DNA of 64,000 bases, from positions 1-64,000 of the forward strand of contig JAENZP010000007.1 of assembly GCA_016841205.1 (NCBI GenBank), read 5' to 3'. The translations under genes and the position numbers were made by a program. The stretch is from Desulfoscipio geothermicus. GTDB lineage: Bacteria > Bacillota > Desulfotomaculia > Desulfotomaculales > Desulfallaceae. This document shows, piece by piece, positions 52,823 through 59,232 of this stretch; positions within the stretch are counted from its first letter, which is position 1, and each line of letters begins with the position of its first letter. Under the pieces are notes generated by a model that was not told where the DNA came from, did not search any database, and saw only the letters and a list, made by a program, of their open reading frames with translations.

Positions 52823-54373
52823 CTAAATCAGTACGGCTACCTCGTCCCGATCCAATATACCCCGAATATCATTCATGACCTGCCTGAAAGAATGGTCTTC
52901 ACCGGCGGCACGCTCAATCTGCCGCAGTACATCAATTTCTCTGCGGATAGTGGAGAATATATCTCCCTCATGCAAATTACAACGTTTCTGCAATTCCTCA
53001 AAGGTAGCGCTGTTATACCAGGCTTCAGCCAGCGGACCGGGCAGTGGTGACCACATACAAAGGTTTTCAGGAACACCTGCTTCCAGCAGCTCATTTCTTA
53101 ACAGAGCTACATTGTCCATGTTATATACACCGGGTAAAACAACTTCGTCACGTCCGGGCTCGTAGTCAATACCCGCTAAAATAGCGGCAGCTTCAGCTGG
53201 TTCGGCTTCTCGCAGTATTCCGGAAAACACCAGCTCGGTTACTAGTATTTCCTGCACGTGCAAGTGTAGTGCAAAAATCCCCCGGGGTAATAACGTTTTA
53301 CCCTCGATAAATCCTAGCTTTTCCAGCAAATTACACATACGCCGAAATTCCTGATGATAATCCACGGCAAATTTTTTCAGCTGCCGGTTACGCCGCACCA
53401 ATTCCTTCTTGCGCTCTACAAGAGCGGTAATTTCATCATGGGCGTCTCGACAGTCATGATGCAAACATCCCTTATCGGGTTGAGCCAAAATGGACTTTAT
53501 CTCAGCTATCCGCCCCGGCACCTCCGGTTTATGACGACGCTTGCGGTTGCGCAGGCGGTTTAGTTCTTTTTTGAGTTTTTCCCGCAACATGGGGCAGGAT
53601 GGCCCATCTTTATCTGCACAAAAGTTTTTGCGCAAGGTAAAGATTTTTTCCTCCACAGTTTCCAGTTCCCCGGCCAGACCGGCAATCTCACGGTTATTCT
53701 GGTATACCGCCAGGTTCTGAGAAAGATAACGTTCTATTTCAGCCTCGGTTTTCCAGTGTAGCAAGCTGAGCGCGGTATTAGGGGAAATAACCAACCGACC
53801 CCGCACCGGCTCCACCTTGTCTTCATCAAAAAAGCCTGTTTGCTCGGGGAATTTTTCATCTATATTGACATAAACGTGCCCCACCTTATCAAAGCCGCGC
53901 CTACCGGCCCGGCCGGCCATTTGAAAAAATTCCCGGTTCAGCAAACCGCGGTGATTGCGCCCATCCCACTTCCGGGTGGCATCGAATACCGTACTCGCCG
54001 CGGGAAAATTAATACCAACAGCAAAAGTTTCCGTGCAAAAAAGAACAAAAATCAACCTGGCCTCGTAAAGAGTTTCCACCAGTTCCTTCAAAGCGGGTGA
54101 CAGGCCGGCATGGTGGTAACCAATGCCCTGTAATAGCAAACGTCGCAAGTGCTTGCGACGTCCCCCGAATAGCCCCGGGGATCCATGCTCAGCCTTTTCG
54201 ATTAACTCACCCACCCGGTTCTTTTCTTCAGGTAACAAAAAGTCCCACTCCCGGCTTAACTCCTCGGCCAAAAGTTCCGTACGACCTCTGCTAAATACAA
54301 AGTAAAGGGCGGGCAGATGATCCTGGATCGACTCTATCACGCCCACGCAGGTGGCGCTATTTACCAGAGCCAT
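52823..54373 (-). CDS. Ski2-like helicase, C-terminal half (RecA2 and accessory domains)
   Basis: This 516-residue protein holds the second half of a Ski2/Mtr4-like superfamily 2 helicase. Motif IV region is VFSRGRTELLAEEL, followed by IGYHHAGL (84-91), motif V TETFAVGINFPA (114-125) and motif VI QMAGRAGRRG (151-160). After that a helical region with cysteines (GPSCPMLRE, KGCLHHDCRDAHDE) and a C-terminal helical domain follow. It lacks Walker A and B, which lie in the upstream gene. Its ATG comes 2 nt after that gene's stop and has its own strong GGGAGGGGG, so it is made as a separate protein that presumably binds the N-terminal half. Confidence 0.9.
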   Translation of the reverse strand: MALVNSATCVGVIESIQDHLPALYFVFSRGRTELLAEELSREWDFLLPEEKNRVGELIEKAEHGSPGLFGGRRKHLRRLLLQGIGYHHAGLSPALKELVETLYEARLIFVLFCTETFAVGINFPAASTVFDATRKWDGRNHRGLLNREFFQMAGRAGRRGFDKVGHVYVNIDEKFPEQTGFFDEDKVEPVRGRLVISPNTALSLLHWKTEAEIERYLSQNLAVYQNNREIAGLAGELETVEEKIFTLRKNFCADKDGPSCPMLREKLKKELNRLRNRKRRHKPEVPGRIAEIKSILAQPDKGCLHHDCRDAHDEITALVERKKELVRRNRQLKKFAVDYHQEFRRMCNLLEKLGFIEGKTLLPRGIFALHLHVQEILVTELVFSGILREAEPAEAAAILAGIDYEPGRDEVVLPGVYNMDNVALLRNELLEAGVPENLCMWSPLPGPLAEAWYNSATFEELQKRCNLHEGDIFSTIRREIDVLRQIERAAGEDHSFRQVMNDIRGILDRDEVAVLI

Positions 54374-54375
54374 AT

Positions 54376-56670
54376 TTAATCCCCCTCCCCTCCGTTACCA
54401 TACATATACCGACGACGACTGCCCACTTGGCGCAGCGCCTCAATTTCATCAAGTGCCTCATCTTCATCCAATACCTCATTGTCCGGGGTTATCCAATTAA
54501 TTTCCAGAGGGACTGCCCGCCGGTATTCCTCCACCACCAATACCTTGCTGCCCCGTACTTCTTCAATCCATTGGGCTATTTCATGAATGTTTGGTACAGT
54601 GGCCGAAAGACCTAATATACGCACGTGAGGCGGCGCGAAAATGATACTTTCCTCCCAAGCCGTGCCTCTTTCCACATCATCAAGGTAATGAACTTCGTCA
54701 AATATCACATGAGATATATTATCCATCCACTCCGGATTGGCAAAGCACCAGTTGCGAAAAATTTCCGTTGTCATCACCAAAAGCTGCGCCCGCTCGTTAA
54801 TAGATACGTCACCGGTAATCAGACCCACCCGGTAATGACCGTACTGGCGGGCAAAATCACGGTATTTTTGATTAGAAAGGGCTTTAATAGGAGAAGTGTA
54901 CACCACCTCACGGCCTTGCTCTAAAATGCTATCTACCAACCGTTCAGCGATCAGCGTTTTACCAGTGCCGGTAGGTGCCGCCACCAGCACCGAGTGACCA
55001 TTTAGCAGGGCGGTAATGGATTTTTGTTGGTATTCGTCCAATATTATAGGCCCGGAGGCCCGGACCTCCCTGGTTTTGCTCCGCTTGGGACGTCTTAATT
55101 TGTGCCACACCGGTCGGTCGGGGCTTTGACCGGGTATATCACCCCATCCCCCCCGAATATCAGGCAGACGAGCGAGTAAGTCTTCCACATCACCCCGACG
55201 CAGTAGGTTCGAACCTTTCTCCGAACGCCCCACACTGCGCAGGTGTCCCTCCCGGATCAACCGCTTGATCTGGTCCTGGGTTATAGTTAGTATTCTAGCA
55301 GCGTCGCCTGTTTTTATTTTCTCGGCCCGCCGCAGCATCCTTTCCATATTTGGAGAACGGCGTAAAATGTCAACGAGGACACGCCAGTAGCGTATAACGC
55401 CTTCCATTTGAAAACCCTGCAGGTGTCCCAGTTCCAACAAGCTGGCGACATCACCTGGATGCACACCCAGCAAGCGCCCCGCTTCCCGGGCAGTGTAAGA
55501 GTTATCAAGGAGGTATGCCACCGGCACCGTCGGGCCTCCCCTTACCGGCAATTCCAACCCGGTAAGTTCATTAAGCTCACGGGCAATTTTGCCGGGATCC
55601 GCCTTAATAGGCGCACAAAACAGCTCCCGCCGATTTAATTTGAGTTCCACACAGCCGGCCTGCAAAGCCTCATGCCGGGCTAATTTACGTTCACGGGGGG
55701 CGAAATCCTCCAAGGTAAAAAATGAGCGTCCACCCATCTTTTGCTTGAGTGTGTAATGTACATAGGCCAGTATTTCCCGGCGTCGCAACTCCTCAGCGCC
55801 CTCGGGCCGTGTATCCACAGTAACACGCCCGTCGGACAGAATAACAAAAGGAGGCTCCTCACGTCCTTTTTTTATTTGGGCCACTAGTTTCTTATGACGT
55901 TTGAACATACGGACAAATTCCTTACGGCTGATGGGTTCACAATGGGACAAGTACCGCCCCACCTCATCCCAGGCCGCATCGCTGTCCGGATGGGCATAAC
56001 GCCCGCCGGGCAGAATAATCAAATGAGCCACTGCCTCAAGCTGTAATTTTTCGCCCAGGAATTGGCTAATTTCTTCTTCTGTAAGGGCTTCATGTTTCTC
56101 AAACAATTCATCAACTTTTTGGCGCTGCCGCCGCACCCGCTGATTGTGAGCATTGGCCTCTTCAGCCCGGCGGGCCAGTTCAGCCTGTCCTGCCGGTGTA
56201 TCCCGCAACGTATAGGTATGGTCGGGCCGCATGATAACATCGGGCATACCTCCGGGCAGTCTGGGAGGCAGTTCCTCATGCAGCATTTCCGATAATTGCT
56301 CCCGGGTACGGGGAACCCCGTCACCCAACAGCTCCCTGATCATTTCTTGAGCCTGAAGCAGTAACCTGCCTTTCAAAACGGGCATGTTGGAAGCAATGAT
56401 TTTAGCGGCCAACCGTTTTTCTCTTCCGGCAGGTATAACGGCAACATCCCTGTTACCGTTAGGGTGACTCAATAAAACCTGTTCCGGAGGGCCACCTTGG
56501 GGCCCGGCCACCGTCACCTCACCCCGGACAACCAGGGATTGCAATGCACTTGACAGTTCACCAAGACCGCTTCCGGCCATACTGCATAAATCAGTTAGAC
56601 TTACATGCCCTCCCGCAGGTATATGATTAAGTAATATTTTTTTTAGTTCTTCTGTTCTGGCGTTTGCCAA
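54376..56670 (-). CDS. Ski2-like helicase, N-terminal half (wHTH-rich extension and RecA1)
   Basis: The 764-residue protein ends with the RecA1 half of a DExH helicase: Walker A AAPTGTGKT (564-572), motif Ia SPIKALSNQKYRD, DEVH (658-661) and SAT (689-691). Residues 1-530 form an unusual extension rich in short helical winged-helix-like modules, including an excisionase-type stretch YTAREAGRLLGVHPGDVASL and a second DAARILTITQDQIKRLIREG, both of the kind that bind nucleic acid. TTG start with AGGAG upstream. Motifs IV-VI are absent and encoded by the next gene. Confidence 0.88.
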   Translation of the reverse strand: MANARTEELKKILLNHIPAGGHVSLTDLCSMAGSGLGELSSALQSLVVRGEVTVAGPQGGPPEQVLLSHPNGNRDVAVIPAGREKRLAAKIIASNMPVLKGRLLLQAQEMIRELLGDGVPRTREQLSEMLHEELPPRLPGGMPDVIMRPDHTYTLRDTPAGQAELARRAEEANAHNQRVRRQRQKVDELFEKHEALTEEEISQFLGEKLQLEAVAHLIILPGGRYAHPDSDAAWDEVGRYLSHCEPISRKEFVRMFKRHKKLVAQIKKGREEPPFVILSDGRVTVDTRPEGAEELRRREILAYVHYTLKQKMGGRSFFTLEDFAPRERKLARHEALQAGCVELKLNRRELFCAPIKADPGKIARELNELTGLELPVRGGPTVPVAYLLDNSYTAREAGRLLGVHPGDVASLLELGHLQGFQMEGVIRYWRVLVDILRRSPNMERMLRRAEKIKTGDAARILTITQDQIKRLIREGHLRSVGRSEKGSNLLRRGDVEDLLARLPDIRGGWGDIPGQSPDRPVWHKLRRPKRSKTREVRASGPIILDEYQQKSITALLNGHSVLVAAPTGTGKTLIAERLVDSILEQGREVVYTSPIKALSNQKYRDFARQYGHYRVGLITGDVSINERAQLLVMTTEIFRNWCFANPEWMDNISHVIFDEVHYLDDVERGTAWEESIIFAPPHVRILGLSATVPNIHEIAQWIEEVRGSKVLVVEEYRRAVPLEINWITPDNEVLDEDEALDEIEALRQVGSRRRYMYGNGGEGD

Positions 56671-56780: not shown

Positions 56781-57782
56781 CTACATGATCAAAGGTATTT
56801 TTTCTCCGCATTGCAAGCAGGTTCCGCCTGACATCTCTGTAACCCGTGTTTGATACCCCTCCCGATCGATAAGTACTATACCGCAACCCGGGCAGGTTGT
56901 GCTGGAAGAGTCTACCTGAGGGGCGTTGCCAACATACACATAACGCAGTTTTTGCTTGGCCAAGTCTCTGGCCAGCCTTAATGTCTCCTCGGGGGTAGGC
57001 GGTAAATCCAACTTGTAGTTGGGAAAATAACGAGAAAAATGTAATGGTATTTCAGGATCCACACGGGCCAGCCAGTCCACTAAACGATTAATTTCCTCCG
57101 GGCTGTCATTTAAGCCGGTTACTAAAAGGGTAGTAATTTCTATATGACAGTGCCCGTGTGCCACCTCCACAGTATGCAAAACAGGATCCAGCCGGCCCGA
57201 ACACGTAGAACGATAAAAATCATCGGTAAAAGCCTTAACATCAATGTTCATTGCATCTATATAAGGAAGCAGTTCCCGCAGCGGTTGTCCGTTGACATAT
57301 CCATTGGTTACCAGCACATTTTTTAGACCGGCGTCACGGGCCAGCTTGGCAGTGTCATACACATATTCATACCACATAAACGGCTCCGAGTAGGTATACG
57401 CCAGCCCTACACAGTGATAACCGCGCTCTTTTTGCTGTAAGGCCAACTTTACCGCCTGCTCCGGGTTTAAACGGGTGGTAGGTGGAGTTTCCTGGGCAAT
57501 TTGCCAGTTCTGGCAAAAACCGCAGCGTAAATTGCAGCCTACCGTGCCCAAAGAGAATATCAGACTCCCGGGGTAAAAATGGTAAAGCGGTTTTTTTTCA
57601 ACAGGGTCAAGAGCATAGGAGGAGCACTCAGCATAATTGGTGGCATATAGAGTGCCCCCATCATTTTCCCGCACCCGGCAAAATCCCCGCTTACCAGGGG
57701 CGATATTGCATAGTCTGGGACACACCTTGCAATTTATCTGATCTCCGGGACCCTTGATATAAAACATAACCTCGTGCCGCAC
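56781..57782 (-). CDS. AmmeMemoRadiSam system radical SAM enzyme
   Basis: A 333-residue radical SAM protein of the AmmeMemoRadiSam family, related to pyruvate-formate lyase activating enzymes. The cluster motif CNLRCGFC (C-x3-C-x2-C) lies in GTVGCNLRCGFCQNW, and extra cysteine sites occur at both ends (CKVCPRLC and TCPGCG/TCLQCG). GTG at 57782, 8 nt after AAGGAG, is preferred to an earlier start. It follows the fused A/B gene by about 40 bp; the reaction is unknown. Confidence 0.92.
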   Translation of the reverse strand: MRHEVMFYIKGPGDQINCKVCPRLCNIAPGKRGFCRVRENDGGTLYATNYAECSSYALDPVEKKPLYHFYPGSLIFSLGTVGCNLRCGFCQNWQIAQETPPTTRLNPEQAVKLALQQKERGYHCVGLAYTYSEPFMWYEYVYDTAKLARDAGLKNVLVTNGYVNGQPLRELLPYIDAMNIDVKAFTDDFYRSTCSGRLDPVLHTVEVAHGHCHIEITTLLVTGLNDSPEEINRLVDWLARVDPEIPLHFSRYFPNYKLDLPPTPEETLRLARDLAKQKLRYVYVGNAPQVDSSSTTCPGCGIVLIDREGYQTRVTEMSGGTCLQCGEKIPLIM

Positions 57783-57822
57783 CCAACCAACTCCTTGCAT
57801 AGACAATACACTCTGCCTGGTC

Positions 57823-59232
57823 CTACCGATACCTGACTACCTCAAAACGCTCCAAGTGAACTTGTTCTCCCGGACTAATGCCCGCTTTTTGACTAGCGAT
57901 AGCCACCTGCTCCTCTACGGTATCTATACCCTCTAAATCAGGCAGCAGCAACCCCCGCCTGCCGCCCATGGAAACAATGACTCCATATTGATGGGGATCC
58001 AGTTCATCCATACCCCGCACGGGTTCGGGATCGGTTAAAATATCCACTGAAATATCCAGTTCCGGCAATTCCTCTCGCTCCACCGGGTTAAAACGATAAT
58101 CCCGGGTGGCTGCGCTAATGGCGTTTTCGGCAATCTCTTCAGCAATATTATTATATGTGGGAGCGATAGTGCCAATACAACCCCTTAGGTGGCCGTGTTT
58201 TTTTAACGATACAAACACCCCCGCCCGGCGCTTGGCAAATGCGTCCGGCACCCCCTGCGGTTCAAACAATTTGTCCTTTTGATCAATATAATAGTGCTCC
58301 AGCACCTTACGAGCTAGCTGTACGGGATAACTTTCAGCCGCTCGTTTTTTACTTGTGCGGTCCAATGCCATTCTCTGTAATTTTTCCTGCAACCGGCGTT
58401 TATCGTCCTGAGCACCGGGCACTAGCACGGCCACAAGGTAACCGACCCCGAAAGGCCCTTCATAAGACAGCACCTCACTCTTTATATCCACCCCGTCCAG
58501 TGCTCCCAGCATCATAATGATAGACCTCAGTCCACACTCACCGGCTTTTTCCACCAGGTCGGTATCAAGTCCACAAATCCCCTCAACATCCGCCGCACCC
58601 ACCAACTCCACTAATTGATGATCAAATTCCTTACCGAATGGATGGTAGCCATTCGGTGCGTCCGGGGTCAAACGGTGGGAAAGATCCGAACTGGCTAGCA
58701 CAGCTACTTTTTTATCTAATTTCGAAGCAGCATCCCGCACGGCCACCCCAAAGGAATACAACTGGTAAAAGGGCAACAACCCCATGGAAACATGCACCAG
58801 AGGGATATGCACACCCGCTTCCCGGATGAAATACAGTGGTGCCGTTATGCCATGGTCCAATTCAGTGGGTACGCCAAAGCGGGCAGCCAGAGCAGCGTCA
58901 ATACAGGCTACCGTGATATCTTTCAAACCGGCCATTTCCTTTATTTTATGCGCCAATTCCAAATCGTTGGGCAATGCAAAGCGCACACCGGCAGCGTTGA
59001 ACTGGCCAAGGTTTCCTTTAAGTTCTTTAACGGTATTGATACCAATACCATCGCTAAATACTGTGCCATGCGGAGTAATCATCACAAGGGTATCCGCACC
59101 ACTATCATTTACCCGCTGTCCCAATTCCAACATAGCTTTTTTAGTGTTGGCCACCTCAATGTCCCGGCCCTGTCCCACCTCAGGCACCATCACAGGCGGA
59201 TGGGGACAAATACCACATAATACAATAGACAC
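57823..59232 (-). CDS. AmmeMemoRadiSam protein: fused Memo-like (B) and AMMECR1 (A) domains
   Basis: The 469-residue protein joins two partners often encoded apart. Residues 1 to about 270 are Memo-like, of the LigB/extradiol dioxygenase fold (ICPHPPVMVPEVG, TPHGTVFSDG, VASSDLSHRL). Residues from about 290 to 465 are AMMECR1-like (GVFVSLKKHGHLRGCIGTI, the conserved LRGCIG hexapeptide). The fusion supports a physical complex of the two functions with the radical SAM enzyme next to it. GTG start without an obvious close ribosome site. Biological role unknown. Confidence 0.93.
   Translation of the reverse strand: MSIVLCGICPHPPVMVPEVGQGRDIEVANTKKAMLELGQRVNDSGADTLVMITPHGTVFSDGIGINTVKELKGNLGQFNAAGVRFALPNDLELAHKIKEMAGLKDITVACIDAALAARFGVPTELDHGITAPLYFIREAGVHIPLVHVSMGLLPFYQLYSFGVAVRDAASKLDKKVAVLASSDLSHRLTPDAPNGYHPFGKEFDHQLVELVGAADVEGICGLDTDLVEKAGECGLRSIIMMLGALDGVDIKSEVLSYEGPFGVGYLVAVLVPGAQDDKRRLQEKLQRMALDRTSKKRAAESYPVQLARKVLEHYYIDQKDKLFEPQGVPDAFAKRRAGVFVSLKKHGHLRGCIGTIAPTYNNIAEEIAENAISAATRDYRFNPVEREELPELDISVDILTDPEPVRGMDELDPHQYGVIVSMGGRRGLLLPDLEGIDTVEEQVAIASQKAGISPGEQVHLERFEVVRYR

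Follow-up and report, generated by a model that had tools for sequence, protein, structure and literature searches.

Genes for the two RecA domains of a putative two-subunit Ski2-like helicase lie side by side in Desulfotomaculum relatives

In a 64,000-nucleotide stretch of DNA from Desulfoscipio geothermicus, referred to as the window, two adjacent genes were found that, judged from their sequences, very probably each encode one subunit of an obligate heteromeric helicase of superfamily 2 (SF2) of the Ski2/Mtr4-like type. In SF1 and SF2 helicases, a single chain normally contains both RecA domains in tandem, and models of translocation are based on the coupled opening and closing of these domains. 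Here, RecA1 and RecA2 are encoded separately, and this arrangement is conserved across the class. The features of the window are as follows.

52823..54373, minus strand: gene 2, an ORF of 516 aa comprising RecA2 (motifs IV, V and VI), a helical insert and a C-terminal DSHCT domain (ORF and Pfam)
54371..54395, minus strand: junction, consisting of a purine tract resembling a Shine-Dalgarno (SD) sequence, the gene 1 stop (TAA), a 2-nt spacer and the gene 2 start (ATG) (sequence and SD scan)
54376..56670, minus strand: gene 1, an ORF of 764 aa for the predicted RecA1 subunit (Pfam DEAD, 2.2e-27)
54376..55068, minus strand: RecA1 part of gene 1, from residue 535 onward (RecA1 matches in 90 of 113 class genomes, motifs in 75 of 75 split loci)
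55081..56670, minus strand: N-terminal extension of gene 1, residues 1-530 (AlphaFold pLDDT 86.5, partial Foldseek matches, HTH_17)

According to the ORF and the sequence, gene 1 starts with TTG and ends with TAA at 54376-54378. Its product consists of the N-terminal extension, RecA1 with motifs I, Ia, II (DEVH) and III (LSAT), and an 'RxVPL' linker strand plus helix; Pfam places HTH_17 at residues 454-501 and DEAD at residues 546-697. Gene 2 begins with ATG, 2 nt behind the gene 1 stop and in a different frame. It contributes motifs IV, V and VI (QMAGRAGRRG) and matches Helicase_C (1e-7) and DSHCT (PF08148, 1.9e-15). A purine-rich SD sequence, GGAGG, is located 10 nt 5' of this ATG within the last codons of gene 1. 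An earlier note on this DNA had claimed a split between a gene with Walker A, DEVH and SAT and a gene with motifs IV-VI, with a spacing of 2 nt and with a start codon and a strong SD sequence belonging to gene 2; the coordinates, motifs, spacing, ATG and GGAGG were all confirmed. Both halves match complementary stretches of the same NCBIfam models, in the case of Hel308 27-193 (gene 1) and 247-403 (gene 2). A search of the genome yielded no additional copy of gene 2. The helical insert of gene 2, which lies between RecA2 and DSHCT, contains two cysteine pairs, C-x7-CP and C-x4-C (window ~53590-53620 and 53450-53470). By a simple pattern scan these pairs occur in 47 of the 75 split loci, and they may form a metal site.

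For structure prediction, a read-through translation of the core of locus L034 (a close relative, gene 2 85% identical), in which the frame-0 stop was read as Q, was folded with an alignment of 61 rows. The AlphaFold model has a pLDDT of 84.7 and a pTM of 0.79, and the junction (residues 217-237) has a pLDDT below 50. Structure comparison with human MTR4 (6ieg_B) gave a Z-score of 40.6 and an rmsd of 2.6 over 649 residues; the core also resembles Ski2 (Z 36) and, less well, Hel308 (Foldseek and structure comparison). A sequence profile search of the PDB ranked DOB1/MTR4 at the top (E ~1e-123) and SKI2 at ~1e-117. Within SF2, the pair is thus nearest to Ski2, Mtr4 and Hel308. On the basis of this fold, which was modelled for an artificially joined single chain, and of the profile matches, the two products are predicted to jointly complete a Ski2-like helicase. 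In the model, the break falls in a disordered, flexible loop that follows the RxVPL linker/helix and precedes RecA2. The C-terminal DSHCT helical domain is a feature of the Ski2/Mtr4 branch. The arch/KOW domain (rRNA_proc-arch) of Mtr4 and Ski2 proper had no Pfam match in gene 2 up to E 0.1.

The survey set consisted of 113 genomes of the class, and RecA1 homologues were accepted at E <= 1e-30. RecA1 was detected in 90 genomes and RecA2 in 88; the former are the same 88 plus two genomes (G084 and G091), in which the RecA1 match is located at or near a contig end. Except at these two contig ends, the halves always occur together, and they adjoin each other. Gene 2 homologues were found in 47 of 60 near relatives and are nearly always an open frame of ~515-580 aa without RecA1. 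Among fifty loci taken from named genomes (Desulfoscipio, Sporotomaculum, Desulfallas, Desulfotruncus, Desulfofundulus, Desulforamulus, Pelotomaculum and others), nearly all contain the same gene pair. After duplicates and fragments had been dropped, 75 split and 8 fused loci of the class and 17 fused outgroup loci were compared. The 75 distinct split pairs span more than a dozen families, and some of the genomes are single contigs; recurrence of the same split in so many loci is far beyond chance. Whether the split is conserved in relatives, a check that the earlier note had suggested, can thus be answered with yes. The carriers are relatives of Desulfotomaculum and belong to a bacterial order that lives in soil and sediment. 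In families f17 and f7, neither half was present in any listed genome, which is consistent with the joint loss of both genes. Gene 2 of genome G074 (L079 and L150, named Desulforamulus aquiferis Bs105 in L079) contains several stops and frame changes; this genome is 72% complete, and the gene is either a pseudogene or poorly assembled.

Outside the class, the homologues of the phylum are single chains of ~750-900 aa, and no convincing split was found among 398 phylum genomes. In the maximum likelihood tree, a supported branch separates all class members. Explaining the split and fused states on this tree requires three changes, the simplest solution being one split and two re-fusions; constraining the split rows to one clade was rejected (AU test, p = 0.0002). 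Most simply, the sequences would therefore reflect one ancient split at the base of the class, followed by re-fusion in at least two lineages. One re-fused case is L078 (771 aa), which lacks the N-terminal arm; the other is the L112-L118 group (1120-1226 aa), which contains it and with which the split locus L130 groups. The re-fused proteins retain the old gene 1 tail (..ALRN.R.W..), followed by a few residues and the old gene 2 start (..LPE.SCSEI..). At all junctions the break is in the same loop. Re-fusion is classical evidence for two proteins working as one. Two further split pairs, L139 (G024) and L140 (G018), belong to two other families and are very divergent (31-34% identity). Their position at the base of the tree depends on long branches, and they possibly represent an older or paralogous split lineage.

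The layout of the junction varies considerably among the 75 split loci. Relative to ORF1, ORF2 is in frame 0, +1 and +2 in 15, 34 and 26 loci, respectively, and the spacing ranges from ORF overlap to a gap of 158 nt. Even within the genus of the window two layouts exist, with gene 2 starting 5 nt past the first stop-codon base in one and 14 nt ahead of that base in the other. According to the SD scan, most junctions offer a recognisable SD sequence and a plausible gene 2 start; in loci of the Pelotomaculum type, the final gene 1 codons (..GAGGAG-TGA) double as the SD sequence. The overlapping or closely spaced ORFs suggest that both genes are translationally coupled. In three loci of genus g27, family f8 (L124, L133 and L137), gene 2 has no ATG, GTG or TTG combined with a good SD sequence at the conserved place. 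Instead, an ACG preceded by GGAGGAG occupies the homologous start position, which implies that translation begins either at ACG, a rare start codon, or 21 nt further upstream. The idea of a split intein at the junction was rejected: junction-spanning sequences have short linkers only, with no room for intein halves.

All motifs are retained on the half to which they belong. Motifs I, Ia, II, III and V are present in 75 of 75 split loci and motif VI is exact in 71; the remaining four have a QMAGRSGRR variant (two of the four were inspected). Walker A never occurs in ORF2 and motif VI never in ORF1 of the split loci. The pair therefore has the motifs of SF2 (I, Ia, II and III; V and VI), but not the tandem RecA-like domains in one polypeptide, which reside on separate ORFs in 75 loci. 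Within the genus, pairwise dN/dS values are 0.03-0.04 for RecA1, 0.05-0.08 for gene 2, 0.06-0.13 for the gene 1 tail and 0.12-0.16 for the N-terminal extension. Both halves are under strong purifying selection.

The N-terminal arm of gene 1 is less widespread than the split. Its AlphaFold model shows winged-helix-like units in tandem and, C-terminal to them, two MerR-type HTHs; the pLDDT of 86.5 and the pTM of 0.53 indicate that the units are well modelled and their arrangement is uncertain. Foldseek gave partial matches only, namely to MerR, BldC, RacA, GlnR and MarR-type domains, and found no full-length relative in the PDB. UFL1, the sole Foldseek match with E <0.001, was discarded as a relative because its TM-score of 0.14 is too weak. 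The arm is present in 51 of 113 class genomes, all from families f1, f18, f12 and f8. In most other families, gene 1 encodes just a RecA1 of ~250-290 aa; this applies to f5, f9, f11, f15 and f3, and no separate upstream gene for the arm was found in the short-ORF1 loci examined. Judged from this distribution, the arm is a lineage-specific add-on that the split enzyme should not need. The winged-helix/MerR-like N-part of about 530 residues described in the earlier note is hence present and was modelled as such, but it is not a general component of the split system.

Two ORFs that lie 2 nt apart in different frames and jointly amount to one ordinary helicase are what a recent nonsense or frameshift mutation, or a sequencing or assembly error, would leave of a broken gene. 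Such an accident is extremely improbable here, given 75 distinct split loci (single-contig genomes included) with differing frames and spacings, strong purifying selection on both halves, and a junction that is always in the same loop. Alternatively, the ORFs might be joined by programmed ribosomal frameshifting or stop readthrough, the split product being a by-product. The purine-rich tract ahead of the stop indeed resembles an SD-stimulator, and readthrough would be possible in L034, L036 and L039, which are in frame 0 with a single stop. We nevertheless consider recoding very unlikely: no single event could serve all three frames and the whole range from overlaps to wide gaps, and gene 2 frames are often closed upstream of the junction. 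With frame and spacing so variable, neither sequencing error nor programmed frameshifting can serve as a general explanation. Together with the SD sequences, this pattern fits two translationally coupled genes, and not one recoding signal or an assembly error. The preference of the earlier note for a genuine split enzyme over a fresh nonsense or frameshift mutation is therefore borne out at the sequence level by the class-wide split, co-occurrence, selection, variable frames and spacings, and re-fusions.

It is also conceivable that the halves have become functionally separated and act alone or with other partners, no longer as a helicase. One could argue for this from gene 1, which in some families has acquired a large, lineage-specific arm of DNA-binding-like type and in other families consists of RecA1 alone. 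We regard it as unlikely in view of the strict co-occurrence and adjacency of the halves, the re-fusions in at least two lineages, and the fact that both halves have kept every motif, among them motifs that depend on each other. In any SF2 enzyme, ATP hydrolysis requires that Walker A and DExH meet the arginines of motif VI; conservation of these motifs is meaningful only when the two chains come together. It is for this reason that the pair is taken as an obligate heteromeric helicase. For such a helicase, it is slightly more probable than its opposite that the split is neutral, i.e. that fission was tolerated due to tight self-assembly and has no regulatory meaning; this is a sub-case of the two-subunit helicase, and the two likelihoods overlap. 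The re-fusions without obvious consequence and the position of the break in a disordered loop favour neutrality. Long retention in over a dozen families, though fusion seems reachable, hints at a benefit but is not a test. It is conceivable, though less probable, that the RecA lobes are untethered, along the lines of the regulated assembly raised in the earlier note: subunits A and B might meet on the substrate, exchange or be withheld, so that assembly would switch the helicase and the winged-helix/MerR-like arm of A would pick the site.

In the two-subunit helicase that we favour, subunit A (gene 1) would provide RecA1 with Walker A, DExH and SAT, and subunit B (gene 2) would provide RecA2 with motif V and the motif VI arginines as well as the helical DSHCT domain. 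Only at the A-B interface would the ATP site and the track for the nucleic acid form, and translational coupling would yield matched amounts of the subunits. The ancestor would have been one chain of ~760 aa; at the base of the class, it would have been cut once within the disordered loop that connects RecA1 and RecA2. The fission would then have been maintained, and at least two lineages would later have rejoined the chains. Homology to Ski2 and Mtr4 suggests RNA as the substrate, and in the family of the window the arm of A probably binds the target. We infer that A and B assemble physically and possess ATPase/helicase activity.

With other Ski2-like SF2 helicases (Mtr4/Dob1, Ski2 and bacterial DSHCT proteins), the pair shares motifs I-VI and a winged-helix/helical-bundle C-terminal half with DSHCT. 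It differs from them in that RecA1 and RecA2 are on separate genes, arch/KOW is missing by Pfam, and some lineages have the extra arm; its core comprises ~748 residues compared to ~910 in MTR4. The single-chain homologues of the phylum (L092-L110, ~750-900 aa) have the same domain order and 45-60% identity in the RecA domains but, unlike the pair of the window, are one ORF without the arm. To our knowledge, no clade-wide gene split between RecA1 and RecA2 has been reported, and searches of open-access literature turned up neither a description of a Ski2-like helicase in split form, nor one of RecA1 and RecA2 on separate genes, nor anything relevant on Ski2 in Desulfotomaculum. Reverse gyrase, an enzyme with an SF2-type motor, naturally consists of two polypeptides in Nanoarchaeum equitans and Methanopyrus kandleri; in N. 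equitans, the break separates the helicase domain from the topoisomerase domain, and the RecA pair remains on one chain (PMC8185306). These are single-organism cases, whereas the split described here is class-wide. In DISARM, DrmA and DrmB together form an SF2 helicase complex. The partner of DrmA lies against both RecA domains, and DrmA itself is a single chain with its RecA modules in tandem, 'as expected for a superfamily 2 (SF2) helicase' (PMC9142583). Only an accessory domain is thus provided in trans, in contrast to the RecA1/RecA2 split. A large bacterial clade would have kept its RecA domains on separate genes for a long time and rejoined them on at least two occasions. With both split and fused forms of one enzyme existing naturally, one could test whether the covalent tether matters, and the pair might serve as a ready-made split motor for engineering. 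Annotation pipelines will report two 'partial' helicases where one enzyme would exist.

The conserved unit is the pair itself, which is kept together while the neighbours vary between families. The earlier note had asked whether the gene order with DUF441 is preserved; this is generally not the case. DUF441 follows gene 2 only in the genus of the window and in one further genus of the family (G010), and with so restricted an occurrence it is no part of the unit. None of the neighbours (ABC transporter, arginase, GGDEF, pyruvate-kinase C-terminal-like, DUF441 and AmmeMemoRadiSam genes) is conserved so as to provide a functional hint. In the window, the AmmeMemoRadiSam genes are located directly upstream on the same strand (56781-59232) and encode a radical SAM enzyme and a fused LigB/MEMO-AMMECR1 protein.
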